A DNA stretch of 64,000 nt from NCBI GenBank assembly GCA_025267735.1, contig CM046294.1, positions 282,001 to 346,000 on the forward strand, given 5' to 3'. Position 1 is the first letter of the stretch. Every line of letters starts with the position of its first letter. Positions 1-50,500 of the stretch are shown piece after piece. The translations under genes and the position numbers were made by a program. Below the pieces are notes generated by a model, which worked only from the letters and a program-made list of their open reading frames with translations, did not search any database and was not told where the DNA came from. The DNA is from Mactra quadrangularis (Eukaryota; Mollusca; Bivalvia; Venerida; Mactridae).

Positions 1-1596
1 AATCGTGATGTATTTTTGTATACATTTTATTCGACCATGTCTTAATAATTGTGACATGTGTTAATGGTTTTATTTTTTCTTAAAGTGAAGTTATCATGAT
101 GACTAAATTCTGTCTTTGACGAAACATGACAAGTTTAGGATGCGCGCATGTGTATAAACATAGCTTTTAGCGTGTGGCTCATCAGGAATGTGTTTTTGCA
201 CTAAACCATTTCCCTATTTTTATATTTGCATGTCTCATTTGACCATGCAAAAGAATAAGAATATAATTATGGATATGCTTAAAAAGTTAGTTTTTCGTAC
301 TGTTTTAGTTAAACTGCACTGAATTTCATTTTGAACCACTCTCAGTACGGTATAATCTTTTGTGTTCCGTTACACCAAGCTGCGTTTAGGTCTCTTTCCT
401 CTCTCTATATGAAATATACCTGTATATAAATTAAATCCTTCTTCCGACTGACAAGTGGACTAACTTTCATGTTTCTTGGAGTAATGTTGTATTTGCCTAC
501 TGGCCTGTGTTTGAAAATTAGGCTGTTGGTGCATAAATGTATGACTGATGTAAAAACCGTCGTAACTATTTCATAAGAATCAACGATTAATGAACCATCA
601 TGACACATAAGTTGCCATAAACTTTTATGATACCATGCTGAGTAGCCTAATTGTTAGACTAATTGAAACTTTTATGTCCGACGTTTATCATTTTTATGCA
701 CTTAATCATTTTTCTTGAAGCCTTTTATGAAGTTTAAAATACATTAAAAACAATTTTGCTTGTTTCATTCTGCATGATTAAGTTTTTATTCTAGTCACGA
801 ACTTCACGAACTAGCAAAACCAGAAAAAAGAAAATGAAGTTTTGATGTGTACAGTTTTTGAATTACAAAACAATTACTCAGAAACTCTAGTTTTGACATT
901 AATAGTAATGACGGTATTAGGAACAAGGGTAATTTTGGTGTCGCTTAATGTGAGAGAACCGGAGTCCAGTTTCGCAAAACTTTTCAGGCAAAACTGTTTT
1001 GTGAAACACGATAGACTGCCAAATGCCATCGTAATAATCATGCTTATAATATGAGCTGTTGCTGTAAAATAATACAAATATTAAACAATTTGCGCATTCT
1101 ATTCTATTCAATATTTCTTATGTATTATTCATTAAATTCAATCTTGTAGCAACTCCTATTGCCCGACTATTTTATTTTCTTGCAGATGTTTAATGTATAT
1201 ACCTTAAGAGGAGAGCCGTAACTAAGTTTTAGAACTTGTGGCTCAACCCGATTGCCGTATATGCATTTAGTTATGTATTATTATTATATTTGTTGTATTT
1301 ATGTAATTGAAAAATGTATTTACGGGCAATAAAATAAGTTTAAACTAATTAAATAATTTGCATTCAAATTCAGAAGAAGTTATCAAAGTCCGATAGAGTC
1401 TTTGGTGCTTCAGAGTTTAGTGTTACAAATTTCAATTTGATATTTATCTCATTGATATCCTATTACATTAACGAGTATATAAGTACACTATTATCTATGG
1501 CCATAGTGAAACATGTGAATATATTAACCTGTCATTGTCGATGGCTTGTCAAGCAGACTTTGCATTTAACTAAATTTCTTCCTGTTTATGTTTCAG
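1..1596 (+). other. Intron of gene A (upstream exons lie outside the window)
   Basis: AT-rich sequence with no convincing exon. It ends in a pyrimidine-containing acceptor (ttatgtttcag, AG at 1595-1596) that starts the terminal exon of gene A. The short open frames here have no family resemblance and look like chance. Confidence 0.6.
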
Positions 1597-1846
1597 TCCA
1601 TCAGACATGTTAGATATGGATGTTGTAAAAATGTCTTACTATGAAGATTCAATCACTAAACAAAAATTGGAAATTCAAAAATTACGCCTAGAAGTTCGAG
1701 CTTTGCAGCGAGAAGAACGACAAAATATGATGGGAGAGAACGAGAATGAGGATGGACCAAGACGTCGAGGAGGTGGAGGAATGTTTGATCCTCGAAGTAT
1801 GTTTGGCCCTAGACAGATGCCACCATTTATGTCAATGTTTAGATGA
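1597..1846 (+). CDS. Gene A, terminal exon up to the first in-frame stop (coiled-coil, Gly/Met-rich)
   Basis: Exon following the acceptor at 1595-1596. The frame enters in phase 2: base 1597 completes a codon begun in the previous exon, then reads PSDMLDMDVVKMSYYED. A charged helical segment follows (KQKLEIQKLRLEVRALQREER), then a Gly-rich stretch with a basic patch (RRRGGGG) and Met/Pro/Phe-rich sequence (MPPFMSMF). The frame meets TGA at 1844-1846. The helical core matches the last exon of gene B (13390-13624), including the intron phase, so A and B are tandem paralogues. The upstream exons are not in the window; by analogy with B they would supply a signal peptide and a low-complexity region, but this is inference. 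The family is not recognised. An extracellular matrix role, for example in shell or byssus, is possible but unproven. Confidence 0.75.
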
Positions 1847-1850
1847 CTAG
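1844..1850 (+). promoter_or_regulatory. UGA-CUAG stop-codon readthrough context
   Basis: The stop codon TGA (1844-1846) is followed immediately by CTAG (1847-1850). UGA followed by CUA/CUAG is the established high-readthrough context in animals, known from several vertebrate genes with C-terminally extended isoforms. The same frame stays open for 175 codons beyond it. A small 4-bp stem (GCCT/AGGC, 1858-1869) lies 8 nt downstream; it is too small to argue much. Function is inferred from the motif plus the open extension. Confidence 0.6.
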
Positions 1851-2374
1851 AAAAAGGGCCTTCTGAGGCAGGTGGTGGAAGTATGCTTACTCGTCCTATG
1901 TCATTACTAGGTGATGGAAGCATAACTCTACCACCTTTTATGGGCGGTGGTATTATGGACCAACCTTCATCGTTAGGAGGAGCACATTCTTCTATGTCTA
2001 TGCCAGGTGATACTAGCATGCCTCCACTGCCTTTTATGGGCGGTGGTGGTATGGACAAACCTTCATTGATGGGAGAAACACCAAATATGGACCTACCCTC
2101 TTTACCAAGTGAATTCAATTTGCTCGAACCCCCTTCAACAGGAAATAAAAAAATGCTCCCGTTCCCCTTCTTAAGCAATGGAGTTATGGAACCAAACATG
2201 GTATTCTCAGGTTTTTCTGCTGTTACAAAGGCACCTACAGACAAACCGTGTGATAAAAACAGTACAAGTGGAAGCAATGCATGTAAAAACAAACCTTCAA
2301 ATGCAAAAGGAAGTGAGGCTAATTCTCTTAATCAACCAAGTTTGAAACTAAAATTTTCTTTTGGAAAAAGGTAG
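1847..2374 (+). CDS. Gene A, in-frame C-terminal extension after the TGA (175 codons)
   Basis: The frame continues without a stop from CTA at 1847 to TAG at 2372-2374. It keeps the Gly/Met/Pro style seen before the TGA: MPPFM lies just upstream, and LPPFMGGG and PLPFMGGGG follow. It holds an internal duplication of about 23 residues (DGSITLPPFMGGGIMDQPSS versus DTSMPPLPFMGGGGMDKPS). The C-terminal third is Lys/Asn/Ser-rich and ends in KFSFGKR. Such a long repeat-bearing frame in AT-rich DNA is unlikely to be chance. It may be translated by readthrough. It could instead be joined by removing a 75-nt in-frame intron (GT at 1797, AG at 1870-1871), or it could be a recently truncated C-terminus. 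A separate gene starting at the ATG at 1883 seems less likely. Confidence 0.65.
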   Translation, partial: LEKGPSEAGGGSMLTRPMSLLGDGSITLPPFMGGGIMDQPSSLGGAHSSMSMPGDTSMPPLPFMGGGGMDKPSLMGETPNMDLPSLPSEFNLLEPPSTGNKKMLPFPFLSNGVMEPNMVFSGFSAVTKAPTDKPCDKNSTSGSNACKNKPSNAKGSEANSLNQPSLKLKFSFGKR

Positions 2375-5300
2375 CATAAGTAGTACAGCCCTCTGTGTTA
2401 TTATTTATTTTACCGTTCGAGACGTGCTTCCTGCATTTCGCCGAACTACATGACAGAAAAGCTATGATATCACACTCTCTATATGTTCAGGGCCAAACGG
2501 GAATTTGTCATAAACTAACTTTAATTCTCAAATGTGACATTTTTATGTCTGGCTTTAGAAATATTAGAAACGTCAAATATATTTACGGAAATTATAAAAT
2601 ATACTTAACATGTTCTATTCTAAAAGCACATCAAAAAGATGTACCTAATGCAATGATACATCAATCTTGACCAATTATAGTAAGTTGATATGTGCTTAGA
2701 AAAAAAGCAACAAGTGTTAGAACATTTTTTCAATAACTTTTCAGTTTAGACTACAAAACTATAAAACAATGTTTTTACAACGATTGGCAACTTTTTTATC
2801 TTCCAAGGACATAGCATTTTCTGATAGTGGTTTGCATGTATCTATAACAGAAATGATAACTGCGTAAACACCATCCTCATTGCCTTCTATAACATGGAGT
2901 CGAATATTTCAAGTTCAAATATTTTGTGAAATCAAATGCTTTTGATTTTTTGGTTGGTATTTTGATAAAACGAACACAATATGCTCGTTGTTTTTCTTCT
3001 TTGAATACAAAACATTTTAAAGGCTCAGAGCGATAATCCATATGTGCGTTATTCAAATTTAATAAGACAAGCAATGTTATTGGTCAATTTCAAGTCAACC
3101 AATTGGAAGACGCGTCTTTCTTGTACATCAATGTGCTCATTTCATATCTTTCTTAATATGTAAAACGGTGTAAAAAGCATATAGTGTTAGCCAATTGTGT
3201 TTTGTCTCATGTAATGGGAATGAGACAAGCCATATGATTGGTCAATTTTAAATCGGCCAAACAAAAGGCTTGTTTCAGAGAAGTGGTGGTTTTTTTTGGG
3301 ACTTTCGTTTGTGTCATAGTCTTTAGACATTCACGAGTTTAAGTGACTTGAAGAATGTTCTTTAATTTCTCTTTGTTTACCTCAGCCTCATTTATGTATT
3401 ATTTTGTTTCATGTCTATAACTTATTATGTCTTTGTTTGTAAATATTTTGTACAATATAAAGATTTTCATCACAACTTTGTTCGTGAAATATCGGCAAAC
3501 TCCGGCTTTTATCAGACTATCAAAATGTCTATATTATACGAAAATTTATATATATTGGTGCCCAAAGTTTGTTTTAGCCGATTTCACAAAAACTTACGTC
3601 GAAATTGATGCAAGTTAAATGTAAATACATTATGTCTGTTATAAAAGTAGTAGGGCAAATAAAGATCGCGAGTAACAATCCACATGTGTTTCTGTTGTTC
3701 TATTTTCTTTGGTGACTAAAGAATTAGGTGATTTTATGATTATTTACCCATAGACTTCGGTGCACTAGCATGGCACTTTTAAGTCTTGGTAAAGGTATGT
3801 GTTAATGCCACTAGATAGAAAAAAGTATTAAGCTGGGAGTGACCGTTCTTTTGCCTAGTCGAATCCGTAATATGATCTTTATCGTGGGAGGCTATGAGCA
3901 CCGGAAAGGTACAAAATGTCAAACAATAAGAACTTTGTCAGAACAATGATCATAAATATTTACTGTGTTTATCATCTATCGGAATATCACAAACTTCATG
4001 TTTTGCTCAGAACTGTCATTTGGAAGTAACTTACCGGCTAGTTGGTGCTTGTCAAGCATTTCGCTAGACTAAGTACCCAATCTGGACAAGATCAATATCT
4101 AAACCGACCAAAAGATGTATGCAAACATCTTAGAATTAGCAATAGGCAATAGAAAGAGCCTTTTGAACAACCTTAAAGCAAAGGGGGAGATAATTCAAGT
4201 TTCTTTTGTTGTAAAAGGGACGCCACAAATGAGTTACGAAAACAAGCACGTAAAGGGTTTCTACCTTGGAATGGACAGTATCAAAATAAATGTCATTAGA
4301 GGTTCATACAGAAAAGTATGTATGTATTTGTTATTAGCAGGACATGACCTTGTTTAAGATCTAAAAAATGAGACAAATGAGAAGTTTGGAATATCTTGTA
4401 TGCTTGACACTCACTCGTATAATGACCATAAGAAATGGCTATTATCAGACAGTTATATTGCATAAGTGGCATTTTAAAGTGTTTTATGATGTCCTGTACA
4501 TCTTAATGACATTATAATTGATATAATATAATGTTGATTAAGGATATCTGTACTTAAAACCAAATAAAATTCTGGTGCCTCCTCTTATGTTTAACCAGCG
4601 TATATGTTTGATGGTGTGAGTAAATAGAATTTGTATGTTTTGTACCTTTAGTCCTTGGGCAAATACCAGGGTCATGTGAGGCGGAAGGTTCACTTCTGGT
4701 TTATGCTATGGGTTGCAGTAATGAACTCCAGTCCATATGTAGCTCTAGGTAAGTTACCTGATTCGTGAGGGCAGGGTTGTATGGAAATAAATTGAACAAC
4801 CTTAGTCACGTGGTACCAACTGGTTTTTTATAACAACCCTGATAAAGAATGTGAGATGAGATACTGTAGAAATTTCAGAAGTGATGTAAATTTCCTTTTG
4901 CGTTATTGAAATTAACGTATCTATTGACAATTTGAAAAGAAGAAAACAGCTTCTACAATTTTACTTTGGCTTTAGTTTGGGTGAACTTCGTACAAAATAT
5001 TTTCTCAAATAAAGAAAATGTAAAGTCGGTAACAAGGCTCGAATCCAAGACATTCTGTAGTGAGAGTGGAACAGTGAGTTGAAGACAGCTACTCAGTGGT
5101 AGAAATGTGTTTGCTGAGAAATAAATACGTGTACACCAAGCGTCTAATATGTATTGCCCGTAGAGAGGACATCAACTTAGCAAGCGTCCATAGGTCGGTG
5201 ACAGATACCATAAATTGTTTCTGAAATATAACAAGCCTCTAGTTAACGTTTCGTACGCCCGTTTTAATTAATTACAAATGCATTGCAATAATATTCTAAT

Positions 5301-7739
5301 GAACACAAATGAATAACTAAGTGAATTAAACTTGTTCAAAGCCACAATAAAGCGTCTGTCCTAAGTGTTTGGTGTTATTAGATTTATATTTATTCTATCT
5401 TTGGAATATTTTTATGGCTTGTAAGAGACACAATGCCATGGATTCGTGTTAACAATTTAATATTTAGTATTCCCATTACTCATTAGCTTTAAGATGTATA
5501 TGAACTTCAAAACAAGTTGACATCTTTGAATTTATGTCGGAAACGTTTTCATTCATATTTTACCGGTTGTTATAATAGCTGTCCTCACGAAAGCCTAGCT
5601 CGCTGGAACAGAGCTTCATAAAATAGTTCTAAGCTATTGTTTTGCCTGTCCTGAATTCGGAGGAAGAAAAATAGATGGTCGTAGGAAATAATTTATTATT
5701 CAACTCCGCCTATAGTATATGCGTGTAAGTAGGTCATGTTCAGAAATTGACTTTTGGACCATGGATGCTTAGTCTTGGCTTGTCCAACCCACACAAAACG
5801 GATACAATGACAATTTCATGGTATTTGGTATAAATCATGTTCATGACCTAAATTACTCTTTCTAAAAACTTTCCACAAGTGTCTGCTACCATTCATGTTT
5901 TTGATGGATCGAGTGTAGTATGCACTGCTCTGAACTTGTCATGAAAACTTAGTCTTGGGGCTTCTAATCATTCAAAAACACACATACAAATAACAGTGCA
6001 AAGAAAATATGTTGAGTTATAAAAATACACTGTACTTCATATATATGCACTGTATATTTGAACTGAATAAAAAAACGAATACAAAATCAAGGTGCGCACG
6101 TCCAAAAGGGCATTCCAATAACAACATAAATGTCTAATTTTGTAAATTTACATTTTGAAATGCACTACCGACTGTCTTATTATGGAAATAAGATGCAAGT
6201 ACCTATTTGTTTACGTCATTTTAATTACCAAACATTTCCTAATTAGTTGTTTTAATTATAATAGTAATGAAAAGGCCCATGAATTCGTTAAAATATCTTT
6301 AAAATGATATTAAAAGTATTTCTTTGTTATTTTACTGCATTTTTGAACGACTTGGGGAAATTCTATGCATGAAGGATTTTAAATGACAGTAGAGGTAAAC
6401 ATTAAGGAGATATAAAAACTTGTGAAGATACAAGTCTAAAGTAAGTGGTGGCAGCTACTCCTTATATAAATTTGAATCAAAAAAGTTGTACGAAGAAAAC
6501 TACCAAACAAGTGCGTACCATTTGCTTACCAAAGGTGTTGGTCTGTGTTGCTGAAACCGATGACAGAAACCAAATACTTACGGTTGTCAAATAAAGAATT
6601 TTTCAGCCCATCTTTCTGCATGAGATACTGTTTGATTGAAGTAAAACTGGTATATTTTAAATGCATATTCATTGTTAACGTTTTACTGAACATTGCTTCC
6701 TCTTTATAGCCTTTAATACTTGATACGTTGTCATAAATGTCATCGTTTTAGACAATGACAACCGAGCTAAACATAGTTAAGTATTAATTTAAATGTAAGT
6801 TTAACAATTTTGTATGTAGAGATTGATGGACATGTATATGCAGCCAATCAAAATACGGGGCTATGTTTGAAAACTTGTTGGGTTTTCAAATACAAAAAAT
6901 AACAAAACGATATATGCATTGCAATACAAATTTGACTAAAATTGTACTAAAATTGCGTTTTGTTATACTTTAAGTTCCATACATACATGTAGCCACCAAT
7001 TGTCTATAGTACCGTATTTGACATCACGTGCCTTCCAATATGATTGATTATGATAGCCATTCTTTGTCTTCTAATGAACTAATAGAACCATCTGTTGCAT
7101 GTTTAAAAAATACATGTACGAAGGTATTAGTTATTTATATAGTTTACCAAAGTATGTGTATTATTAATGCATTAGTTCGAAAGTGAACATAACACCGCAT
7201 ATTGCTTCAATATGACATTTATCTAACGGGATAATTACCGTAATTACCATAAATAAGAATGTTTGACAAAGATATACATTCATAGTTAAACTATGATAGT
7301 ATGATAGTTTCTTTTGTATGATATTTTGTATGAGTCGCGCTAACGCCAATCATTGTCGGTTTTTTTACTAAGTATGCTTTAGAGACTGTGATTTTTGGCT
7401 AACAATTGTAACGCAGAGTACCAATCTTTTCAGAGATGGCATGACAAACCAAAAACGGTTTTGCTTGGCCTTAAAATTTAAAATGTAAGAATTTCTCGAT
7501 GACAGTGTGGAGGAATGAATGGCTGCAATTGTTTCGTGATAACGTTAAAACAAATGAAAAATTCACCTTTCCGTTGATATATCGCGTTAATCAAAAGAGT
7601 GACTGAAATTTTGTTCAGGTGATTTTTGGATACATATTTTTTATTTCGTTTGTACAATTTTCTTGTACAACTAGTACAGTATTTCCGGTGCAAAGAAAGA
7701 AAACAAATACCTGTATTTTGAGACTAAGAACGGAGAGAA
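2375..7739. other. Region between genes A and B
   Basis: Begins with the presumed 3' UTR of gene A; the first clear AATAAA is near 3657, about 1.3 kb downstream. No exon is supported. A worn tRNA-like stretch (ggctcgaatcc) near 5035 may be an old SINE. The 80-codon frame at 4115-4357 resembles nothing I know. Promoter elements of gene B upstream of 7740 could not be identified with confidence. Confidence 0.5.
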
Positions 7740-7800
7740 ATGACAATGAAACTTAGAATTGCTGTTTTTATTTTCGCGACATTAGCGTTGTCAAATGCAT
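7740..7800 (+). CDS. Gene B exon 1 (signal peptide)
   Basis: ATG at 7740, with a second at 7746. Encodes a hydrophobic signal peptide ending LALSNA. Donor gtaagt at 7801. One base (t) is left over and joins 'ac' of exon 2 to give Tyr. Confidence 0.8.
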
Positions 7801-10800
7801 GTAAGTATGGCATATTTATTTGTAATTAAATGTTGTTTTAGTGTTATAAATAAACATTAGATATTTTATGACAGTTTAAGATGTCGTTTATGTGATTGAC
7901 ATTATTTTGTCTTATTAAACATGTTCGCTTGGCTTTTTTCTATTGTTATTGAATAACAATATATTTTCGATTGTTAATAATTTTTTGAAGTGTTTGATTG
8001 CGACTTTGGACTTGCTATCATGGGATCGCAAACTCGCATTCCATCCAAAAGCTATACCGTTGTTTTTCATGAGCAAGAAACTTCATCCTTATCAACAATA
8101 TTGGGACCAGGAAGCGGACTCGAAAGTGATTAATCTAAGTTGTAAGAACTTGTGTAACGAATTATTAGAATTTAATAAGAAAAATATTTATTGTAAAGAT
8201 TTTGTATTTGTATAATGCCTAAACTTTAAAGGCACTGGTTTTATAACACCAAAACACACATATTTAATGATAAATATCTACTATTGATACTTTTTATGGA
8301 CGTAGAGAGTCAGACGAAGGGCTTTGTAACAACGAATTTTATTGGTGATTTCTAAATACCAGTATCGGCACAAGCAATTGGCATAGCCCCTAATCAAACC
8401 ACTCTTTACGCATGCATAGGCAATGCCTTTGAAGTCAAGCCAGACCCCCTGGAATATATATTTACTTCTTGGCTACATTAGCAGATGAGTGACAGGTCAA
8501 TATTAATATGTGAATGACGTACATAGTAGCTTTAACCAAACCGAAATTAAAGCTTAAGATCAGTTGCTGTGAATAAGTAATACAAAAGTAAAGTTATGTT
8601 AATCTTGAACTATTCACTTAACTTCTTGTGCCACTACCAACCGTGGTACAACACTACCAACCGTGGTACAACACTACCAACCGTGGTACAACCGTGTGTG
8701 CCAAGCATCCACTAACATACACACTCTGTTGTTGCATGTGCTGTTGAAATTTTAAACAAAAAACATATTTAAGTAAAACTAACGCCTTTCTTTAAACCAC
8801 AGGCAATTGTGTCGAATTTAATTTACTCAGTTTATATACCACTAATACTCCTTCATTGGCGGTCTCGTGCGTTAGTATTAAGGTAAGAACTAATCATAAA
8901 TTGCAATCGTGTATTATTTGAAAATACATATTGCTGGCAACTTCTCCTTATAGCTTACTAGTAGAGGAAAATGGACATTATTGTCAATTTTTCAGGATAT
9001 AACCGCCCATGTGGGGTTCGAACCCGTACCCTCTTCAGAGAACTAGATTCGAAATACGAACAGTTCAACATATTCCAGTGAGCTGCGCTTAGTTGCAATA
9101 AGTCAATACCAATGATAGCGATATACGCAGCACATGGTTTAAATATTTGATTATGTTACCTGTGGTTTTAACATAACATTGGGATTACAATAAATATGAC
9201 TCTCATATTGCGAAGTTTAATCATGATGAGAGTTTCCTTGTCACGATTTCATGACTTCAATGGTTCTTTGTTCTTTGCATGACGTCATACAGCCAGTATT
9301 AACTTGAACTTAGGTTATCGTATATATTTATAATAACAACTGCGTCATACTTAAAATTGTTTTCTTGTATATAAATAGTTGTGTAGAGCAACAGCAATTG
9401 TTTGTGGCACGCTACTACGGCGACACATAGTCTGAAAAAAGGGGTGGGTGCAATGCTTAGCTTTTCTTTATGATTCAAGGTCTAAACAATGATTAGATGC
9501 AATGTTGGGCGTTACGTTGCGTTACATTGTATGAAAGCCGCCCGGCTAGGTCAGTTGGTAGCACGTACGTCTACTAATCGAGGGGTCGTGAGTTCGATTC
9601 CCGGGGGGCATAATTTCGTGGAACGTGGTCATGAAATTATTTCTACGGCCATTCTCCCTCCTACCAATGATTTTCAATTCTGTAGGACAGTTGTCAGTAA
9701 CTGACGAAAGTATGCGCTTAGTAGTTGGTTAACAGCTAAATCCAGAGATTCAGCTTTTCCAGTAGGAGTGAGTAGGTTGACTGACCGCCGATGAGTTGCT
9801 ACGGCGTTACACCAAACAAACAAACATTGTCTGAACAAGGGATTTATTGCAATGTTGAACGTTATTTGAGCTAAAAGGTCACTTTAAAGAGTGTTGTATG
9901 CGATGGCCGATGTTTGTTGCGAGCGTTCTCTTATGCTATCCGGAAAATCAAAAAGCTAAACACTCTTTCCTGGTAGCAGGTGTCAATGAGTCATACATTC
10001 TATATGGCAGTCATTGACAAGTCGTAAATGTGAAATAAATATGTCACGTATTTCAATTGTGTCCCATTTTGCTGACAAACAGATGCTGACATGTAATGAA
10101 AAGATAAAATTTTGTTTAAAGTCTGCTTCCATATACATAAATGCTCAATCGACTTTACAATATGGCACGATAACCTCTGATCATTTAAATCACCTCCAGG
10201 CGTGTGATCTCTTACTGTACCAGTTTGCGTCTGGATGGAGTGGAACGAGTGTAGGTAAATCTCTTGTTCAAGGAAATTAACAGTGCTCATAGAGGGGTTT
10301 GATACCGGGACATCACTATCGCGGACGTCCTTTATGCACCATGTGACTACGGCTCCTACTTTTACAAGTAATGAAATAAAGCCACAACTGGTAAAAAGCT
10401 ATACTATCCAATAATAAATATATATAAACGAAACAAAGAGCAAATTTAGTAATAAACGAAAAAATGCTTCTAGAGCAACAATTTCTTCATACTTTTTTTC
10501 GCTTAGTTTTAATATAAATAATCTCTTCAAAAACCTTAATGCTAAGTCAGACTCGTGGACTCAATACTAATTGTTATTTATTAACAAATCAAAATTAGTA
10601 TGTTCAGATCAAACTGAAATCTTTTTTAAATTGTCATTTTATTTCTTTTCAGACGGAATTATTCACAAAGACAAGGGGCCGTCTAGAAATTTACAAAGAC
10701 TGCGAAAAGCTAAAACGCCATCCAAGCCATCTCCACCACCTACCGAACAGTCCCCAGGAAACTCTGGCTTTCAGCTCTTGATAGGCGATACAGGCGATAG

Positions 10801-13624
10801 ACACACACTCCTAGAGCAATTACAAAAACAAATGGAACTTCGAAAACAGGAGTCGATTAAAAAACAAACAACCAAGCCACAAATGGTAGACACAATGGCC
10901 GAACAGATATTACAGGAACAACATGTTCAGCAACAGAAACTTTTGCAGGAACAACAAAAACAACAGCAATTACTGCAAGAGCAAAAACAACAGCAATTAT
11001 TACAAGAGCAAAAACAACAACAACTATTGCAAGAGCAAAAACAACAGCAGTTACTTCAAGAACAAAAACAACAGCAATTAATGCAAGAACAGCAACAACA
11101 GCAGCAGCAACAAAACCAAAAACTAGAAATGATGCAGAGGAAACTAGATGAGTTGACAAAACAGACCCAAGAACAGAACCAGATTCTTAAAACAGAGATA
11201 AATCAAAAAGCAGGATTGCAGCAGCCGCAGATACAAACAAATCCACAACCGCCGCAGCAAACTAACATGATGGTTAATCAGCAACAGCAAATTCAACAAC
11301 AGCCAGTCGTTCAACAGCAACCACTCCAACAACAGCAGCAAATGGTTCAAATGCAACAACCAATTATGCAATCATTGTCACAGCCGATTGTTCAGCAACA
11401 AAATTTACCACAGGTTCAAGTCCAAAATCAATTTCCAATGCCTATGAATCAAGGTATGGCTCCACAACCACCAAACCCTGTTTATAATTTACAAAACCCT
11501 CTTCAACCTCAAATGATGCAACCTAATTTAAACAATCAACAGCCTTTGTCACTCCAACAGCAGTTACTACAGCAACAATCTCAGCAATCACAGCAGTTGC
11601 TTCAATCACAACATCAGCAGTTTCTACAAGCTCAGCAACAGCAGCAACAACTGAATATGAATCCATTTGGCGCTCAAAGAAACCTTATAGTTCCAATGAA
11701 TGCTCTACCACTTGAATCCATGCTTCAGAATAATGGTTTACTGTCTGATCGTCTGATTTTAGTAAACTCAATGAATTCTAAGCCGTCTGCGACGACAAAC
11801 GCGCCAAAACCTGCATCGCCTACACATGAAACAACAACCAGACCAACGACCACACCCACTACGCCAACCACTACAACCACGACCCCGCCTACCACCACTA
11901 CACCGAGGTAAGTGTATTTTATACATATTTTTACTGGTTTTAACGCCGTGTCAACACAATTTTAGGTCATTTAACGGCGTCCAGAGCACCTAACCTAGCT
12001 TTCCTTGACCCTTGTCTATAACCAGTACTCACATACGCTTCCACAAGGCCGGAAACTTATCCATAGTATCTTATCAATGGAGGAAAATTGACTTTCTTGT
12101 CAAATTACCATGAAAGGGTATAACCTCCCGGGTGGGATTCGAACCTGTATCCCCTTCGGTACACGAGATTCCAAATCCCGGCGCACTACTTCTTTTGAGC
12201 TACTTCATTTTATGTTTTGCATGTTCACAATGACTTGAATATAATCAACAAAGGAAATACAATTCTAAGAAACATATTACAGTACAAAATTATGTGTATG
12301 ACCAGATCACATTTTGATTTTTAAAAAAGTATCTATTATCTAATAAAAGTCACGAATGTTTGTTTATTTGTAACGGAATGGTGTTGCAGATATGATCAAG
12401 CATTCATTTTGTCAATGGGAATTTTCGTTTATTTAAGACAATCGGTATACTAGCTGGCGCTTTGTTTACATTTTCATACGGTTACAATAACAACAGATAA
12501 TTAACTACAATCTGTTTATATACAATTTCAAGTATCTTTGCCGTTAGATAATCATTTAACAAATTAGAAGTATTATAAAACATGATCATATATTTATAGT
12601 TGTTTTTAAATTTAAAACAAATTTGAACTACAGATTATATTCAGTACTTGATTAACTCACTGTATAAATAAGCCCATAAATTGAGTCATTTTGGCGGAAA
12701 TATTTTTTGCAATAGTTTGTTTATGAAAAATGTCACAATAATAAATTACAACCATTTCTCATTTTACCGGAAGTGGCTGACATCTTGGCGACTTAGTTTG
12801 TTTGTTCTTGTTTGAAAATAAACTTTTAAATGTACTTAAATGAATGTGTTTTTTTGCATTTCTTAAATGTTTAATTAATTTTATTTACGACATATGAATA
12901 AATGAAATATGACTATTGTCAAAAATATGAACACGTTACTAGTGTATACATTAGGACTTTGGAAGATCAAGGGCTTGCTGTTTCAAAGTCTCAGTTTTTA
13001 TCCGTTGGACCTCATTTCTAAAAAAAGAAACAAAAAAGCAGAAAGTGTTAATGTAATGACAATACTTAGTTCAAAATGGGTTAATTAATACAGTATAATT
13101 ATTGTACGCTATATGGGTACCTTTTCTGTATCGTTTTATTGTTCTGAGCTCCATTCAAAATGGCATTTATTTACAATTTTGTATTTGGTAGTTTACTTTT
13201 GACACTACGCTTATCCAATGGTTTAAAGCACAGGGAATTTTTATGTTACCTCCCTTTGACTTTGAAACGTACCGTTTATATCAAAGAGAGGTAGCATGAC
13301 ACTTCCCTGTGGTTTAAAGCGCACAATGCCTTAGAGACTTACCACACTAATATTACCCAAAATATTAACAATATTTTTATGCATTTTAGTGAAGAAATGG
13401 TTATGGAAATGATGCAAAAAGAGTCCGCCAAGCAGAAAGTTCAAGACCAAGCAGCACAAAGACAAACCTTAGAGATACAAAAATTACGATTAGAAATCAG
13501 AGCATTACAAAGGCTGGAACGAAAAGAGAAAGAAATGGAAATTGAGAAAGCTCGCACGGATAGAATAGGTATTAATGCCTCAAATTTGTTCGGGAAAAAT
13601 GGAAAATTCCCACTTGATTTTTAA
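7740..13624 (+). CDS. Gene B: secreted Gln-rich low-complexity protein with C-terminal coiled coil (3 exons)
   Basis: Join 7740-7800, 10653-11907, 13390-13624; 516 codons from the first ATG, with all junctions in phase (phase 1, then phase 2) and GT-AG borders. Order: a signal peptide (MKLRIAVFIFATLALSNA), a basic/proline-rich segment, a Leu/Gln coiled-coil region with a 9-residue repeat QLLQEQKQQ, a long Gln/Pro/Met-rich segment, a Thr/Pro mucin-like linker that could be O-glycosylated, and a final helical segment (LEIQKLRLEIRALQRLER) shared with gene A. The signal peptide and absence of a visible membrane anchor suggest secretion. The family is not recognised. Gln-rich secreted proteins occur among molluscan shell and byssus proteins, so a structural matrix role is a plausible inference. 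The second in-frame ATG (7746) is the alternative start; both have a purine at -3. Additional small exons inside the 2.85-kb first intron cannot be excluded. Confidence 0.8.
8108..8160 (+). repeat. Dispersed repeat, second copy at about 16888-16940
   Basis: The stretch around gactcgaaagtgattaatct recurs almost unchanged near 16895-16940. Both copies are noncoding fragments of an unidentified interspersed repeat; the first lies in intron 1 of gene B. Confidence 0.6.
8632..8691 (+). repeat. 20-bp tandem repeat, three exact copies
   Basis: Three perfect copies of cactaccaaccgtggtacaa inside intron 1 of gene B. Each contains the near-palindrome accaaccgtggt. Confidence 0.9.
8966..9092 (-). mobile_element. 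SINE family B, head fragment
   Basis: On the minus strand it carries a B-box-like gggttcgaacccc and the family-B flank (ttgtcaaatt, grown from tRNA-like sequence). The 3' part of the family is missing. Confidence 0.6.
9537..9826 (+). mobile_element. SINE family A, near full length
   Basis: tRNA-derived head with A box (taggtcagttgg) and B box (gagttcgattccc), a body with the cagttgtcagtaactgacg motif, and a tail ending in acggcgtta plus a caaacaaacaaa run. Flanked by a short target duplication, acattgt. Lies in intron 1 of gene B. Confidence 0.88.
10653..11907 (+). CDS. Gene B exon 2 (Gln-rich, Thr-rich tail)
   Basis: Acceptor ttcttttcag at 10643-10652, donor gag|gtaagt at 11908. Encodes about 418 residues: basic Pro/Ser start, heptad-like Leu/Gln region with five 27-bp repeat units, poly-Gln tracts, and a C-terminal Thr/Pro run. 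The exon ends in phase 2. Long frames on the opposite strand are only shadows of the CAA/CAG composition. Confidence 0.85.
10970..11104 (+). repeat. 27-bp coding minisatellite (QLLQEQKQQ repeat)
   Basis: Five tandem 27-bp units, in frame inside gene B exon 2. The units differ almost only at synonymous sites: the Leu pair reads tta-ctg, tta-tta, cta-ttg, tta-ctt, while the peptide stays QLLQEQKQQ. The last unit has Met for one Leu and runs into pure Gln. Confidence 0.9.
11938..12206 (-). mobile_element. SINE family B, near full length
   Basis: Starts about 30 bp after the exon 2 donor of gene B, inverted. Shows the taacgccgtgtcaacacaat tail module, the ccacaaggccggaaac body and a tRNA-like head (gggattcgaacctg). 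The outermost head bases are degraded. Confidence 0.85.
12880..12885 (-). terminator. Possible polyadenylation signal AATAAA on the minus strand
   Basis: Lies 66 nt downstream of the stop of the candidate minus-strand exon 12951-13010. It is meaningful only if that exon is real. Confidence 0.25.
12951..13010 (-). CDS. Candidate last exon of an antisense micro-gene
   Basis: On the minus strand a strong pyrimidine tract (gtttctttttttag) is followed within 7 nt by a second AG at 13012-13011. From 13010 a frame reads VQRIKTETLKQQALDLPKS, then TAA, with AATAAA 66 nt further on. Phase 0 agrees with the candidate exon at 13873-13938. It lies inside intron 2 of gene B. The helix-like charged sequence is not recognised. 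Chance is a real alternative. Confidence 0.25.
   Translation of the reverse strand, partial: VQRIKTETLKQQALDLPKS
13230..13305. repeat. Imperfect hairpin in gene B intron 2
   Basis: Arms of about 30 bases (from acagggaa...tgttacctccctttga to tcaaagagaggtagca...ttccctgt) form an imperfect inverted repeat ending about 85 bp before exon 3. Probably a MITE remnant or a local foldback. Confidence 0.6.
13390..13624 (+). CDS. Gene B exon 3 (charged coiled coil, stop)
   Basis: Acceptor tgcattttag, AG at 13388-13389. The split codon ag|t gives Ser, then EEMVMEMMQKESAKQ and the helical core TLEIQKLRLEIRALQRLER, Lys/Glu-rich sequence, and an end in GKFPLDF with TAA at 13622-13624. No readthrough context follows this stop, unlike gene A. 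It is homologous to the gene A terminal exon by sequence and intron phase. Confidence 0.85.
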
Positions 13625-14542: not shown

Positions 14543-15059
14543 CTTATTAATAAGTATAAAGTTACACGATAATATAAGATATCCTTACACCTAGGGGATT
14601 TCTTCAGATTGTTTTTAATGTATAAGTGTGCATAAGACCAGTAGAATTTATAAGTTACCCGGTTAGTAAAAGAATGCATTTTTTGTTACACTACATCGTT
14701 TTTGTATTTTCTCCTTACGTTTACAGGATATTATAATTAGGAAGCGATTGGTGTATCAATCAAGATGAATAACGCTCAATGTATTTTTGCAAGATATCTT
14801 ACACGTAATTAAAAAATGCTCATTGAAGGTGCATTCCATAAACATGTGCAAGCGGAGAGGCTGTCGGTACGGTTTCAATTTATTTTGTGTATATAAAGCG
14901 TCTTTGGTTCGGGAACGTGCTGGTCGCCTTTGTCTCAAAGAGTATAGGAATATCAAAAAATACATTATTAAATCGATTGCTTTTATCTTTCTGACATATT
15001 GGATGATTTGAATTGGATAATATAAACCATGTTATTAAATATTGGTTTCCGGAAGAAAA

Positions 15060-15284
15060 ACTTTCGTGGGGCTTAGTCATGAAAATATTTCTACGGCCTA
15101 TCTCCCTCCTACCAATGACTCTTAATCATGTAGAGCAGTTGTCAGTCACTGACGAAAGTATACGCCTAGTAGTTAGTTAAAACCAGAGATTTGGCCTTTC
15201 CTGTGAGTAGGTTGACTGACCGCCGTTATATAACGTATACTATGTGATGCTACGGCGTTTAAACCAACAACAACAAAAAAGACC
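15060..15284 (+). mobile_element. SINE family A, lacking the tRNA head
   Basis: Begins at ctttcgtggggcttagtcat and continues through the ctccctcctaccaatg and cagttgtcagtcactgacg body to the acggcgttt tail and caacaacaacaaa end. Confidence 0.85.
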
Positions 15285-29500: not shown

Positions 29501-32500
29501 AACAGACTATACAATTACTTCAACGTATACGACAACATCATTTGAATAATGGTATAAACAACTCAAAATTTCAAGGTGATTTTTCGTTAGAGGCGTGACA
29601 GATTAGCTCTAACATTAGTTTGTAAAACTTGAACATGAAATTGCTATCTTGTTATCTTGTCATTTAGGTACTAGTATTTTGAAGTATATTGGTTATTGCG
29701 GTAGTAGACCCGTATCCTCTTTTACATCAGACGGAAGATTCACTCGTTTGTATTACCTGAGCTGCGATGGGAATGTATAGACCAGGAGACGACACATTCT
29801 TTAATTCTGGTTCGTTCAGAGATTTCAACTTAAATACCAACCTTTCAGAATCTCGAAAAATGATAAAGATACATTTAGGAAGCAGTAAGGTAGTGTTTTG
29901 ATGATGACAAATGTACATATTGACGGACGGTCATATAAGTGTAAAAGTCTGTACATTATAAAAACCATACCCGTTTAGTAACGGTATATATGATATAAGT
30001 GCGTTTCTAACATAGGCACTCGTTTGATGCTAAAGCACTCGTGATTTAATCACACGCGCATCAAAGCTCGTACCTATATTTTAATAATTAGTAAAAGATA
30101 GACAACTGTAAGTTATTTCTTAATTAAGCGACTTTTGCAACACAACTAAACTACATGAGAGATAACAATTCTGTACCATATAATAATGTGCGGCTTTCTT
30201 GAACAATAATTAGTTGACTAGTCGACCATTTCAACTCACTGAAGACATATCACACCATAATGACTGCTATGGTATATATATATAGTGTCCTAAATAATTC
30301 AAGAAAAACCCAAATCCTGTAAGTGGTTAATGATATATTTATTAAAAGGAATGTAAATTAAAACCATTATAATATAATAATATATGTATGTGTATAACGT
30401 ATTTCAGTATTAACATAAAGTATAATAGTATAACATTAGAAATTCATTAATTGCTTTCAATTACAAAAGTCTGTTTACAAGCAACTTATTGTTCGTTTTT
30501 TCTCAACTGGCAAAACATGAATAATTTCACGGTGAATGCGTTTGTTAAAATTATTGTCGTTATACACCCATGAGTTTCCGAAAGTGTGTATTATGATCGA
30601 GTAAAGCTAAGTCAAGATATCTTTAATAATAAATAGGCCACCAGTACAAAAACAATGCATTTAGGCACCGTGAAATTATTCAAGCTTTGACAGTTGAGAA
30701 AAAACGGACAACACAAAGGCACACAACACGATAAATTCATAATCATGAACATAGACTACAATACAAGCAGTTTAGTTATGTAACACTAGTATTAAAATCT
30801 TCAAGTTAAAATATGTGTAATACATTTCATCAATGCAATTCAAACATTTTCACTACATCACTGTTGTTCATGGTAACAAATAATCTGTTCAGTTCCTGGT
30901 GAAAACATACTGAACGTGGATATTGTAATCCATCTTGATTTTTTATGACGACACCAATCTTCTTACCATCCTCAGAAAACTGCACCACATTGTGAGACCC
31001 AAAACCAACTACAAATAAGTTCCCACTTCCATCAACACATACACAATCTGCAGCAGATACGTCTGTATCATTGAATGTTGACTGATATTTTCCTTCACCA
31101 TCCAAACAAACAATACCTTCCTGCCAGTTACCAACATACATTTTGTCTCCATTCCCATTGAAAGTAACATGTTTACTATGACCAAACAGTTTATTTCCAG
31201 CATTATCTCGTGATATAGTTTTTAACAATTTTCCAGCCAAGTCATAAATATAAAGTGAAGCTCTATTATCAGTCACATACAGCTTGTCATCTTTAGTTGT
31301 AATACCATAACAATTGTGAGATGTGTTGATATGCGTACGTGTCATCGTCTTACCATATGTAACAAACTGAATCGTTTTGGAGCTTCCACATGCTACAGCA
31401 GCCTCGTGATCACTAATACAACATACACCGTATGGTTGACTATCTAGTATACAGTAATCTATAACTGTCATTGTATGTGTATCAATCAGTTTCAGTTTTT
31501 TGTTCCTGTAATCAGTGACTAAAAGTTGTTTATCAAAGGTAAGACAACATCCAGGAGAAGAACAATGAGTTGAATCATCCATCAGCTTGATGTTGATATC
31601 TTTGCTTCCGCTTATTTTATACATGTCAATTTTCTCCGTTCCAAAACCACCTACCATACCAATACCTTGTAAACCATCTAGATATTTCATCAATGACTGA
31701 TTGGGTGTGAATGCAAACCGTTCATCATTAGCTTTTACTTTTGGTTTGTTTAATAGCTTGTTAGCTTCCGCCACCTTTTTCTCTGCTATCTTGCTACTAA
31801 CAAACCTTTGCGCTCTGTTCCCTTCTGACTTATTCAATTTCTCATCAGACTCCTTTAGACCATTCTCAGTTTCTTCAAAATCTTGCATATCTTGAATGAC
31901 TTCTTTCTCTAGTTCTTTGTATTTATTTTCAATGGCAGTTCTCGTAGTTTCACCAGCTTTTTGTATCATAGACTCAAGAGCTTTCTGAAAATTAAAGACT
32001 TTTTCTAGTTCTTCATTCTTCTGACCTTTCAAAGCTTCAAGTAAATCATCCTTAGACTTTCCAAGTGTTTTTAATGAAACCATCATATCAGTAAGACGAC
32101 TCTGTATTTGTTTGCACTCCCCAAGTTTATACAACTTGTCAATTAGGTCTGGTACAGAATATATACTTTTCCCAGGACAAGACCTACAAAATCAAAAACA
32201 CGAATAAATGGTAAGTTGTATTTAAAACCATCTAACGGTGACAATTTCTCTGCAAATTGACAAAAACAAATTATAAATAAATCGTTATCTAATTGTAAAT
32301 ATAGGTTATATGTTTGTTTAAACTATTTACAAACATGGGTATATATTTAATGTTCAATACAATGCAAAGCGTTTACAACATTACCATTAAAAATTTTAAA
32401 GTTTAAAAAATTAAAATTTTAGGTTTTTAACAGAGTTACATATTTCTTTATGTAATATTTGACTGACTCTCACATAATCGTTTAAAAGTGTATAATATGT

Positions 32501-44500: not shown

Positions 44501-47500
44501 TTTCGAATAAAAACACTCTAAAGAAGTCATGGAACACAGTTTAATCAAAATTTATTTCATGTGATATGATATCATCTGATTAAGTTGAGAAACTTTGTGC
44601 ATTTGAATGTGTGATTTATTTGTCACCCAAGTGCACGAAGACAGTTCGGAAAAAATATAGTGCAACATACAATGCAAATATAAAAACGAATGAAACATGA
44701 GCATATATCATCTCAAATTTACAAAGTCTTACATAAGCAAGTACAATTATTAGTCGGTACAATTTCATTTACAAATACATTGTCCGAGAATTTCATTTTT
44801 GTCTGTCCGGAACTTGTCTTTTTACTTGGAAAGTTTCTCATTCATAATGATGGACACTTGTCTCCTCATCCAATATACTACTCAGACAGTATTGGTGATC
44901 AAGGAGATTTTCTTCATAAAAGGTGAATGTTAAGAATATTCCCAAAGAGGTACTTTAGAAAGATTAATTGACACACAAATTATATTAACAAACGTACTTA
45001 TACGTAAATGCAGACATTAATACGTAGTAGTCTGTGGATGGCACTATTCATGCGTTGCCCTTCCCTTCTTTAAGTTACAAAATGCTCATTATCTATATTT
45101 TTTCAAACGTAGACTATATTTACGCTGAAATGCTTTCTAAACGCAGAATAAATACATTAACAGTCACGTGGCCTTGTACTTCATGCACTTCCATAAAATG
45201 TTACCGATTCTAAAAACACTAAACGATTCAATTGCCATTTTCTACTGTTGTATACAATGTAATATTGCAAAATGACGATGGAAATCAATTGAAAAGTACC
45301 GAGGAAAGGATACTCCATATGGATTATAGCAACATACTTGTTCAATGTCTCTATTTCAACAAGAAGCTAGATAATGTTTGTTTCTAATCATATTAAAGCA
45401 TTGAATATTTAAAGCAATCGTACTCGAAGTTTTCGTATGTTTTAGCAACAGTGTTTTATCTAATAATGCTAATTTAGATATTCATTTTCTACAATATATA
45501 GTTTTGTTAATATGACACGGGCTTTAGTAATATGTACAACTTAAACTAACTTCCATTGTTTTTGTTATGTTGAATATTTGTAGTATACGGTGAGGCATTT
45601 GCGTAAGCGTAAGTGTGCAATTATGCTTATGGGACTTATTGCGCATTTTTTATTAAGTGCATGTTTACTGTTTTAAAACTTAGCAAACATAAACACGAAC
45701 TATTGGACAACAATGACAAATATCTGCATATACAGATTTTCGTTTGTAGTATGATAAGAATCATATAGATTAAAGTGTACTCCATATTCAATTAATTCCA
45801 CAAGTAAGTATAAAAGACAAATGCGGAAACTTCTGGGAAAGAAATCAATACCTAACAAAACAAAAACAAAATTGAGAAAACATGATATATCTTAGTATTT
45901 TTTTCTTTAACAACTAACATCGAATGCGATATGAGGATGTATCATTTTCCCATACTTTGAACATTTTGAGATTCACCAATTTTCTTTAAGTCAGTTTATC
46001 TTCATTATAAAACTCCATTTCCCAGAATGACATTGAAATAGTTTTCACTAGTCCTGAAATTATCTTTACATGTCTTTGAACGTTGTAAGTTTCTCAAATA
46101 GTATGATGTAGACGTGCCTCATAATTACTACTCAGACTATATTTGTGATCAAGGAGTTCTATTCCAGAGTGTTAATATTTACTGAAGAGATACTTCAACC
46201 AAATGAAGTTAACACTAATTGCATTGGCAAACATTCTTATCGATGTAGAAATGTATACAACATGTTGTTTGTATATCTAACTTATATGTAGTATTGCTTT
46301 TTATGAATATAAAAATATGTTCTCCATATTAAACATATTTGAAAAAGGTTATCGTATTTCTCACAACTGTAAGAAACACTATATTGACAAAAACGCAGAC
46401 GTTTACATCCACATATCGACATATCAATACATTGATTCTGTTTAATATGAAATTTTAGTCATGAAACTAAGGAAACGTTTTCTTATAATCGTGTTTTTTT
46501 TTCTTTGAAAATAAGCTAAATATTTGTGATGAATTAGTATTAGCATGTATTAACAGGTTAAATTAATAAACAGTAAAGTTACATTCCACATAGATGAAAC
46601 CTTAATGACGAACTATTATCCTTTTTTTCACGTCGTATTAAACTCATATTTAGGTCATATTATATAATATGTTGTGAATAATAAAACACAATTTGACCAT
46701 TTGCAAACGAGATATGAAAATGATAAGAATAACAATAAGTGAACGCTTAAGAGAAAGAAATATATGACATGTGACAAAAGTAGATTTGAAGAGATGAATC
46801 AGTGTAAATAAGGGGAAGAGATGATGTGTAGATTATGCAGATGATTAGTACAGTTATAGTATTATGAATTTATGATAATTACCTTGTGGACTTTTTTAAT
46901 GATGAGTGTACAGTTAATAACAGCGACAATGTAGTTGGCACAATTGTAAATGATATACCTTTAGCAAAGTTTATAAATGAGCTAACAACTTTCATTAAGT
47001 TAAAAACACCATTTCAAAAACAAATAATTTTATAATTCCTGCAAAATCTTACCTGGAACGTCAAAAAAGCATCGTTCTTTTCATGTGCCACCATAGCCAA
47101 ATAACAAGCAATAATCATAGCCACAAGTATTATCAGCAAAATGATTGCCCACCATGTACCGTTGCTTAGTAAATCAAATCCAAATATCAGCAGACAGTTG
47201 AAGCATATAATACTGACCATCAACAAGAAAGTTGCCATCATGACAGCGCTTCCTGGTTCAAATTTATTTAAAATAGGAAACGATCGTAAGTTTTGTTTAA
47301 GTCTACCAAAGTCATCTTGGCTTTTTGATTTTTTGATTATGGATGACTCTTCAGTCGGTGAGGAAGAATCTGTAATTGGAATTTCTTCTTCCGGTTTAAG
47401 TTTGAATTGACATTTATACACTGGAAGGTATCTCAACACAATGACGCTGGCAGACACAATTGTGTATGCCGTTAGAGTCCCGATTGACATAAACTCTACA

Positions 47501-50500
47501 AGTGTAGTGATTTCAAACAGTAGCGCCATTAGAGCTGACACAAATCCAAACACTGCAATGGCTAACACTGGTGTTTGAAATTTTGGATATACATACGCCA
47601 AAGATTTAAAAAGTAGACCGTCTTGTGCCATCGCGTAAACAGCTCTAGGAAGAGAAAACGCACTTCCAACCAGAGAGGTTGTGATACCAAACAATGTTCC
47701 TATTCCCACAATATATTTAGCCCAGTTTATACCACGTGATGCGAATGCTGCCGGAAATGCTGCAGACGGATCAACATCATAGTAAGGAACAATCAAAGTT
47801 AATGCAGTGGTTGCTAAAATGTAAATAAACGACACAATTATCAATGACGTCACAGTTGCCACGGGAATGGATTTCTCTGGTTCTTTGGCTTCTTCGCTGG
47901 AGACGGCTATGCCTTCAAACCCAATATAGGCATAGAAACATGTAGCCGCACCGGCTAAAGCTCCACCGAATCCGTAAGGAAAGAATCCCCCATGATTGGA
48001 CCAATTTCTGTTGTCAGCAAAAGCAAATCCAACACAAACTAGGAATAAAATAACCAGGCAGTTGAACACAGTGAACACTGTGTTAAAATGAACAGTGAAT
48101 TTTGCCCCAGTGGCGATCACCAAGAATATGAGAATTGTTATTGTCATAGCAACAAAATCCGGGTATTCAGATATCCATTGAGAGCCGTGACTAAGGTAAC
48201 CAATGTTCTCCAAAGTACTTTTGCGTATCTCTCCATTGAAAAGTGAGTCTATGGCACCACTCCATGCGCGAGCAACTGAAGCCGCGCCCAGCAAGTGTTC
48301 TAGAACCACATTCCAGCCTATGATAAAGGCCCATAACTCACCAATGGCAATATAAGTGTATGAATATGCTGATCCAGCTTTTGGTACACGTGCTCCAAAC
48401 TCAGCATAGCAAAGTGCTGACAATATTGCGGCGATTCCAGCGAATAAGTAGGATAAAATGGCGGCTGGTCCAGCCAAATCCTTAACCACAGTTCCTGAAA
48501 GTACAAAGATTTGTTATTAATATTAGGCGTGAAAATGTTTGTTTATGCAACAGTTGTATCAGTATCAAGACCATGTCGGCACTAACTAGGGCTGCAGCGA
48601 GTATCCGAGTGCTCGGATATTCGCGATCCCGACCAGAAAATCGTATACGAATATTCGTCACGTCAGAAATCGTCGGATTGCGATCTAGTTTTGGAAAAAA
48701 AAACGAAAGAACATAATATTATTCAGAATAATTACCACTGAAAACGAGTCCACTACCATTGAAAACTTTATTTTATGTAGGGACGAATTATCCTGTCAGA
48801 ATTTCGATTGATACTCATTTGAACAAAAATGTTATCACTAAAAATGCCCATCAAACGTCTAATAGTAATGTCTGGAGTACATGGTTTCCCATATAGTAAA
48901 AGCTTCTGTAATTTTTCACTTATTTTTGTATATCGTGAATCGCTACACATAAATCGAGGTTCGGATCGAATCGCCACTTGCTCAACGATCCACAGCTCTA
49001 GCACTTACCATATATTAAGTAGATTGAAGAAATGAAAGCAAATACTTGTTGCTCAGATTGAAATCGATTTTCTGTAAAAGAATTCAAAAGTCAAACAATT
49101 GACGATTTGTCTTTAATGCATTTAAAGCGAGGCGATTATAATTTATAACAAATCGTTTAAACAAAATATGTGTTTGTGGTCAATTAGTGTTTCGTTATGC
49201 ATTTATTAATTTAAGACCAAATTAGTAAGCAATGTTTTTTTAACCGTAAAGATTCTTTATTTAGTCTATAACAAAGTTTCAAAAATGCTGATGTCCCCAA
49301 AAATACCTAAATACATTGTAATTGTCTAGTAAGATACGCATACAAAAACGTTCATGCCTTTGTAAATCATAACTCTACGACTTGTTTTCTGTATATAGCA
49401 AATACAAAATCGCGTGTTCCAGTATATTCAAATGAACATCTTTGAATATATCAAACCTTCTCTCAAGTCAAGCGTATTGATTCCGACTTAAATGTCATAC
49501 AATGTTTCTTTCATCTCCCATTAGACTTTCAATAGAACGGCTCTAGAATTTCGTCTTGTCAGACTCGCTGTATATATAATTTATTTTTTTTGGGGGGGGG
49601 GGGTCTTACAACCTTAATCCATACCTGATAGTTATATTCATCTCTTATTTAAGTAATGGTATGGAATACAGTTGCAAAATTTCCCTCAGGTATAAAAGCT
49701 AACATTTAACATTTAAATTAATGCGAGCTTTGCCAATATAAAGGAAAAAGTATAAAATATTTCGTAATAAAGTATCATCAAAGCATAGACGAAAGGGTGA
49801 TTTTGCCACGATTGTTAATACTTTATTGTAGATTAAAAGAATCGATTGACAAGACTGAGTTGAATGCAAATGTCTCAAAAATATAGAAAGCTAGACAGCA
49901 AATGCATTTGTCCTGAACGCACCTTGTATATTCATCATAACATTAATTCTTTAAATCGCGTGTTCCAGTATATTCAACTGAACATCTTTGAATATATCAA
50001 ACCTTCTCTCAAGTCAAGCGTATTGATTCTGACTTAAATGTCATACAATGTTTCTTTCATCTCCAATTAGACTTTCAATAGAACGGCTCTAGAATTTCGT
50101 CTTGTCAGACTCGCTGTATATCACGTATGTTTTATCTATCACACGCGTGTCGTTATTTCAGCTTAAAGTCAAGAAACAACTCCGGTGAATGTTTTCTATC
50201 TATCACACTCGTGTCATTGTTTCATACATATTCTGAGAAAATACTCCGCTTAATGTATTTTGCTGTAATGTTATTGTGGGAAGCGTTGCCTCATAATGTT
50301 GTCGCCGTTTTGTTTTCTTCAGACATTTATAACAGCTTTTATTAGATCCGAGCCCGCTTACCAATCCAACATAACCGCGACCCTTTTCCTGATGCAACAG
50401 TTGCAGTTTAAATTGCAGTTTAAATTCTCCGTTCCTGAATCAACAGTTGCAGTATAAATTGCAGTTTAAATTTTCCGTTCCTGACTCAACAGTTGCAGTT

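Follow-up and report, generated by a model that had tools for sequence, protein, structure and literature searches.

A UGA stop codon followed directly by CUAG characterizes four mammalian genes with efficient readthrough, and passages of the paper describing them put readthrough in human reporters at about 7–31% for the full motif and about 1.5% for UGA-CUA alone (PMC4132726). In those passages, the four genes carry no conserved RNA structure, and the 12 nucleotides (nt) past the stop appear enough for maximal readthrough (PMC4132726). Further human genes with UGA-CUAG reach about 1.3–6.7%, and the readthrough extension of VDR is 67 amino acids (aa) long, as given in extracts of PMC5868278. 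Chikungunya virus also uses UGA-CUAG (PMC5100048, in extract) and has a stem-loop 10 nt past its opal stop (positions 5657–5783, 127 nt), which promotes readthrough according to a reporter study cited in the excerpted text of PMC7615711. Here we consider a bivalve gene, gene A of Mactra quadrangularis, which ends in a 64,000-nt stretch of contig CM046294.1 (contig positions 282001–346000, hereafter the window; coordinates without a prefix are window positions), and in which a TGA-CTAG stop is followed by 175 further in-frame codons. We argue that programmed readthrough is probably the best explanation of this extension, and that gene A is a strong single-genome readthrough candidate.

Like gene A, the genes OPRL1, OPRK1, MAPK10 and AQP4 (also VDR and MDH1) have a UGA followed by CUAG and an in-frame C-terminal extension; unlike these mammalian genes, as far as the excerpted sources describe them, gene A encodes a secreted repeat protein, its extension would be 175 aa long, and a structure is predicted after its stop. 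The alphavirus nsP3/nsP4 opal stop (chikungunya) also has UGA-CUAG, and its 3′ stem-loop begins 10 nt past the stop in the extracts on the virus; in some of the gene A folds the outer helices would start at 11–12 nt, and the predicted gene A stem-loop is reminiscent of that signal. Gene A is, however, an animal cellular gene whose structure is predicted only, and no sequence relationship is claimed. The readthrough genes recognized by PhyloCSF in Drosophila and Anopheles resemble it in having an in-frame coding signature between the two stops, C after the stop and, in some, stem-loops; unlike those sets, gene A is one bivalve gene assessed in a single genome. Among the literature matches listed, none has a title on readthrough in a gene of a mollusc, which is a weak absence given that the literature coverage leaves out most subscription papers, and the match that names both readthrough and a mollusc concerns Euplotes.

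Gene A begins upstream of the window. Its exons were placed without a transcript, by eye and by analogy with the neighboring paralogue, gene B, using 20 kb of upstream DNA, and the resulting three-exon model has its last exon starting at 1597.

Contig 276868–276925 (outside the window): gene A exon 1, signal peptide MFTSKLVVLLLCVFVFANG (splice model)
Contig 278229–279399 (outside the window): gene A exon 2 (splice model)
1597..1846, + strand: gene A exon 3, coding to the putatively leaky TGA, entered in phase 2 (splice model)
1844..1850, + strand: readthrough-type stop context TGA-CTAG, with TGA at 1844–1846 and CTAG at 1847–1850 (sequence)
1847..2371, + strand: 175-codon in-frame extension (open frame, coding score)
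2372..2374, + strand: second stop TAG, beyond which the coding signal is absent

The exon 3 acceptor at 1597 reads TTTCAG in phase 2, and the two intron phases (1 and 2) are identical to those of paralogue B. Exon 3 encodes a coiled-coil-like segment (KLEIQKLRLEVRALQREER) and then a GGGG/MPPFM end. The short form comprises 492 aa, signal peptide included, and the long form 668 positions if the stop is counted as one. The UGA-CUAG stop of metazoan readthrough genes is thus present at 1844–1850; CTAG itself occurs at 0.2% of positions. The initial annotation had drawn attention to this in-frame TGA at 1844, to the CTAG behind it and to the 175 open codons, and had stated that the stop of paralogue B has no such context. 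Both observations hold: the frame stays open up to the TAG at 2372–2374, and paralogue B ends in TAA-CTT with 5 codons until its next stop.

An open frame of this length is not expected by chance. No noncoding stop-to-stop run out of 10,152 reached 175 codons, the longest being 140 (84 kb, both strands, masked exons left out); the chance of such a run is 6e-6 by a geometric estimate and 1.3e-5 by a tail estimate, and 20,000 dinucleotide shuffles of the extension did not once preserve the open frame. The count leaves out one open run of 221 codons at the very start of the upstream sequence used (about −19997 to −19335 in window coordinates), since no left-hand stop is present there; this run probably belongs to a neighboring gene as one of its exons. 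On the minus strand, an antisense open frame of 218 codons (1675–2331) spans the TGA region. As a coding strand it was rejected, with no Pfam match at E up to 0.01 and antisense frames scoring below frame 0, and it is taken as a by-product of sense-strand composition.

The composition of the extension resembles that of coding sequence. With a codon model trained on 1,945 codons from four genes at the locus (the extension left out), frame 0 scores +0.209 bits per codon and the five other frames −0.49 to +0.04, and none of 2000 noncoding 525-nt segments (one frame each; maximum 0.042) matches the frame 0 value. All three segments of the extension score positive, the highest being 1847–2006. Past the second stop the score of that frame drops to −0.279 bits per codon, and 13 in-frame stops occur within the following 525 nt. 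The extension has G+C contents of 0.47/0.51/0.27 at the three codon positions vs a flat 0.33 in noncoding DNA. On this single-genome score, a second open reading frame with a coding signature ends at the second stop, although the synonymous-only part of the score shows no such signature.

Further evidence comes from protein repeats on both sides of the TGA.

1748..1831, + strand: pre-stop protein repeat unit 1 (EDGPRRRGGGGMFDPRSMFGPRQMPPFM), aligned locally with unit 2 (coordinates hand-counted)
1850..1942, + strand: protein repeat unit 2 (EKGPSEAGGGSMLTRPMSLLGDGSITLPPFM), one codon past the stop (local alignment with unit 1)

Specifically, the pre-stop part of exon 3 aligns locally with the extension at a score of 56 (shuffles 29.7, standard deviation 5.2), and the pre-stop unit EDGPRRRGGGGMFD-PRSMFGPRQ--MPPFM pairs with the post-stop EKGPSEAGGGSMLTRPMSLLGDGSITLPPFM. 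As none of 1000 shuffles reached that score, the earlier suggestion that the extension continues MPPFM/GGG-rich repeats begun before the stop is borne out. When the other five frames of the extension DNA were aligned with exon 3, 88 to 795 of 1000 shuffles did as well. Unit 2 starts one codon past the stop, so that the TGA lies at the junction of two repeat units, and since 7 of the 12 identical non-Met residues of the two units are encoded by differing codons, the units are old at the DNA level. Exon 2 was also considered as the origin of the extension repeats and is unsupported (165 of 1000 shuffles as good).

The normal end of the protein can be judged from two relatives. A protein search with the gene A C-terminal region (2256 candidates, E up to 1) found a sole homologue, the Mactra antiquata hypothetical protein ACF0H5_019068 (P0001), which is orthologue-like over its whole length and ends where the short form ends, with MPPFMSMFG at the same alignment position as MPPFMSMFR in gene A; unlike gene A, it is known as a short-form protein only. 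Over exon 3, 73 of 79 aligned residues are identical, so the normal C-terminus is well kept; three codons of the gene A GGGG region are missing from the M. antiquata protein. From this comparison the gene A stop appears older than the Mactra species split and, if the two stops are orthologous, the extension would have been open since at least that split. The second relative is paralogue B, a secreted Q-rich protein of 514 aa with a Thr-rich hinge (7746–13624).

7746..7800, + strand: paralogue B exon 1, signal peptide (splice model)
10653..11907, + strand: paralogue B exon 2, Q-rich with a Thr-rich end (splice model)
13390..13624, + strand: paralogue B exon 3, whose TAA-CTT end lies close to the site that is homologous to the gene A TGA (splice model)

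Because both relatives end near the gene A TGA, the short form is very probably a real product. Searches of the 979-Mb genome (447 contigs) found only genes A and B with the gene A exon 3 peptide, a single match (its own locus, no paralogue) with the extension, and 0 matches to a DNA pattern for the GGG-MP repeat. A protein search with the paralogue B C-terminal region gave no match at E up to 10 (26 candidates). No Pfam family passed its cut-off when P0001, B, the extension and the exon 3 peptide were searched; the strongest of the weak matches were to New_glue (20.6 bits for B and 16.9 for P0001, cut-off 31), DUF4786 (extension) and CCDC22_CC (exon 3).

The same comparisons bear on other causes at the UGA, namely selenocysteine insertion, an assembly or sequencing error, or a separate start for the extension, which together we hold to be very improbable. 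UGA is the selenocysteine codon; in 1500–5500, within which the true end of the 3′ untranslated region is not defined, no SECIS was matched at E up to 10 (five listed hits belong to other families and all fall below gathering scores), and a selenoprotein is not supported. The matching end of the M. antiquata protein argues against a sequencing or assembly error, and separate initiation is opposed by repeat unit 2, which starts before the first ATG of the extension (codon 13).

Folding of the RNA past the UGA predicts a stable element.

1858..1945, + strand: predicted 3′ stem-loop, with a core 10-pair stem 1870–1879/1927–1936 (folding, shuffles)

The core stem begins 23 nt after the UGA, and its pair probabilities are 0.8 to 1.0 in a 321-nt context. 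The outer helices depend on the fold: in 1855–1950 the bases 1858–1861 pair with 1942–1945, in 1847–2000 there is a small hairpin at 1858–1869 together with pairing of 1848–1851 and 1997–2000, and in 1859–2000 (a start forced by choice) 1859–1866 pair with 1973–1980. They start 11–12 nt past the stop in folds begun at 1855 or 1859, for a span of 88–122 nt, and folds at 18 °C are similar. An assumed mRNA (the coding exons plus 1,226 nt of 3′ flank) was scanned in 100-nt windows with 60 shuffles per window; the one directly past the UGA has a z of −4.2, the lowest among 157, and for the one two bases further none of 300 shuffles was as stable. Synonymous codons were then permuted to separate codon choice from structure forced by the amino acids. 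Shuffles as stable numbered 2/300 with start and length searched over, 1/400 for the core stem, 0/500 for 1857–1946 and likewise for 1869–1936, and 6/500 for 1850–1949. These predictions are suggestive of a stable stem-loop after the UGA.

The age of the stop and the structure behind it also inform an alternative in which the extension is a relic, i.e., a once-longer protein acquired the TGA as a nonsense change fixed before M. antiquata split off, leaving the frame beyond it as a remnant without useful translation. The extension does resemble former coding sequence, its present translation is not evidenced, and substitutions alone often spare the frame: 2.0% of those in the extension create a stop, and 48% of neutral frames would still be open at 0.068 substitutions per site and 12% at 0.2. 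With indels, however, the survival chance is 2.8% at 0.068 substitutions per site in this lineage and as low as 2.7e-5 at 0.2, an argument that is valid only if the gene A and M. antiquata stops are orthologous. The neutral calculation assumes one indel per ten substitutions, 80% of them frame-breaking, and its result depends mostly on indels; 0.068 is approximately a lower bound by our conversion from the 26% protein divergence to M. antiquata. It is possible that decay becomes viable if indels are rarer than assumed. A random nonsense change, moreover, is unlikely to fall in UGA-CUAG directly before what is predicted to be a strong stem-loop, and paralogue B ends near the gene A TGA, so the early end is old. 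Taken together, we regard decay as unlikely.

A long form could also arise by splicing, through an optional intron (exitron) or an alternative acceptor that removes the TGA in frame. Candidate sites exist: the donors at 1773 (score 1.9) and 1797 (0.6) form in-frame pairs with acceptors such as 1872, 1911, 1977, 2007 and 2142, and acceptors at 2110 and 2176 are in frame with exon 2. Those at 2007 (6.3), 2176 (4.7) and 2142 (4.2) lie above the 99th percentile of local AG sites, and the acceptor of gene B exon 3 itself scores only −0.7, so that a low score cannot rule out sites, e.g., introns ending at 1872 or 1911. The donor at 1773, however, falls within the 95th–99th percentile of local GTs, compared with scores of 4.6 and 7.7 for the two gene B donors examined, and it sits among the GGGG codons, where the M. 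antiquata protein lacks three. Use of the best acceptor, 2007, would moreover excise 1847–2006, the segment with the top coding score of the extension, and repeat unit 2 with it. Scores here come from matrices of general consensus values, untrained on this genome. On this evidence splicing seems decidedly unlikely as the source of the long form. As an observation in its own right, the late extension (2007–2374) contains strong-looking 3′ splice sites by consensus at 2007, 2142 and 2176; such sites are perhaps due to PPF/PSL codons.

Programmed readthrough itself faces several results that weigh against it. UGA-CUAG alone is no proof of function. The end match to M. antiquata is limited by the overall comparison, in which 355 of 482 aligned residues are identical, and the extension alone gave no match in a protein search at E up to 1 (71 candidates). 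A score restricted to synonymous codons is uninformative (783 of 2000 noncoding segments are as high), and the coding signal is therefore one of amino-acid-type composition. When two very similar units within the extension (starts at 1934 and 2030) are compared by eye, 4 of 15 codons differ and every difference is non-synonymous, which does not look like protein constraint. As to the structure, the outer helices, and hence the exact spacer, vary between folds, the fold from 1847 adding the pairs of 1848–1851; scan windows about 120 and 140 nt past the stop are nearly as stable (z of −3.9 and −4.1). Several intervals lose the contrast with synonymous shuffles: those as stable number 16/400 for 1859–1980, 49/400 for 1855–1985, 58/400 for 1855–2000, 59/500 for 1847–1976 and 257/500 for 1847–1926, an interval that omits the 3′ arm. 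A longest-helix test was unsupportive: 138 of 300 shuffles contain a helix that equals the 10-pair stem in length, and in the assumed mRNA the longest helix is located elsewhere.

The proposal of the initial annotation, that gene A yields a short and a long form by translational readthrough, is nevertheless supported by the stop context, the open frame, the coding signature, the repeats, the end of the relative's protein and the predicted stem-loop. Readthrough by ribosomes itself, its rate, a contribution of the structure and the role of the long form are points we infer, as follows. The product would be a secreted Q/T/M/P-rich protein whose mature short chain is without cysteine. Its UGA would stand in a weak context, UGA-CUAG, whose 3′ neighbors may favor near-cognate decoding; given the distance from the A site to the ribosomal mRNA entry, the predicted stem-loop could be near enough to reach that entry with the UGA in the A site. 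A near-cognate tRNA would sometimes outcompete the release factor and 175 further codons would be translated, so that a majority of short chains would be accompanied by a minority of long chains with a different end, the latter gaining GGG-M-P-PFM repeats and a tail with two cysteines. With signal peptide cuts placed by eye (19 residues for the gene A short chain, 18 for B and 19 for M. antiquata), these two are the sole cysteines of the mature chain; the mature short chain, paralogue B and the M. antiquata protein have none. The extension also adds one further N-glycosylation sequon. The long form is perhaps a cross-linking or anchoring minority form. As a tentative and rather doubtful extension of this model, gene A may encode a bivalve extracellular structural protein in which a two-part, alphavirus-like signal (UGA-CUAG and the 3′ stem-loop) fixes the ratio of a cysteine-free short chain to a long one with additional repeats and both cysteines, translation itself thereby metering a minority cross-linking or chain-anchoring subunit.

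Elsewhere in the window, 9538–9830 looks by eye like a tRNA-derived short interspersed element (SINE), with tRNA-like promoter boxes and then a tail that about 15050–15270 seems to share; ARAGORN found no tRNA gene in the window. On the minus strand, an open frame at 30830–32191 has SGL and NHL beta-propeller matches above Pfam cut-offs and is presumably TRIM-NHL-like, and one long open frame at 47014–48513 encodes an amino acid permease (PF13520, E 2e-44), which we take to be SLC7-like.

If the readthrough reading of gene A is true, this 175-residue clam extension would place functional readthrough among the molluscs, in a protein whose two ends differ visibly in length, repeats and cysteines. 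It would also provide a cellular case that may combine the UGA-CUAG motif with a 3′ structure.
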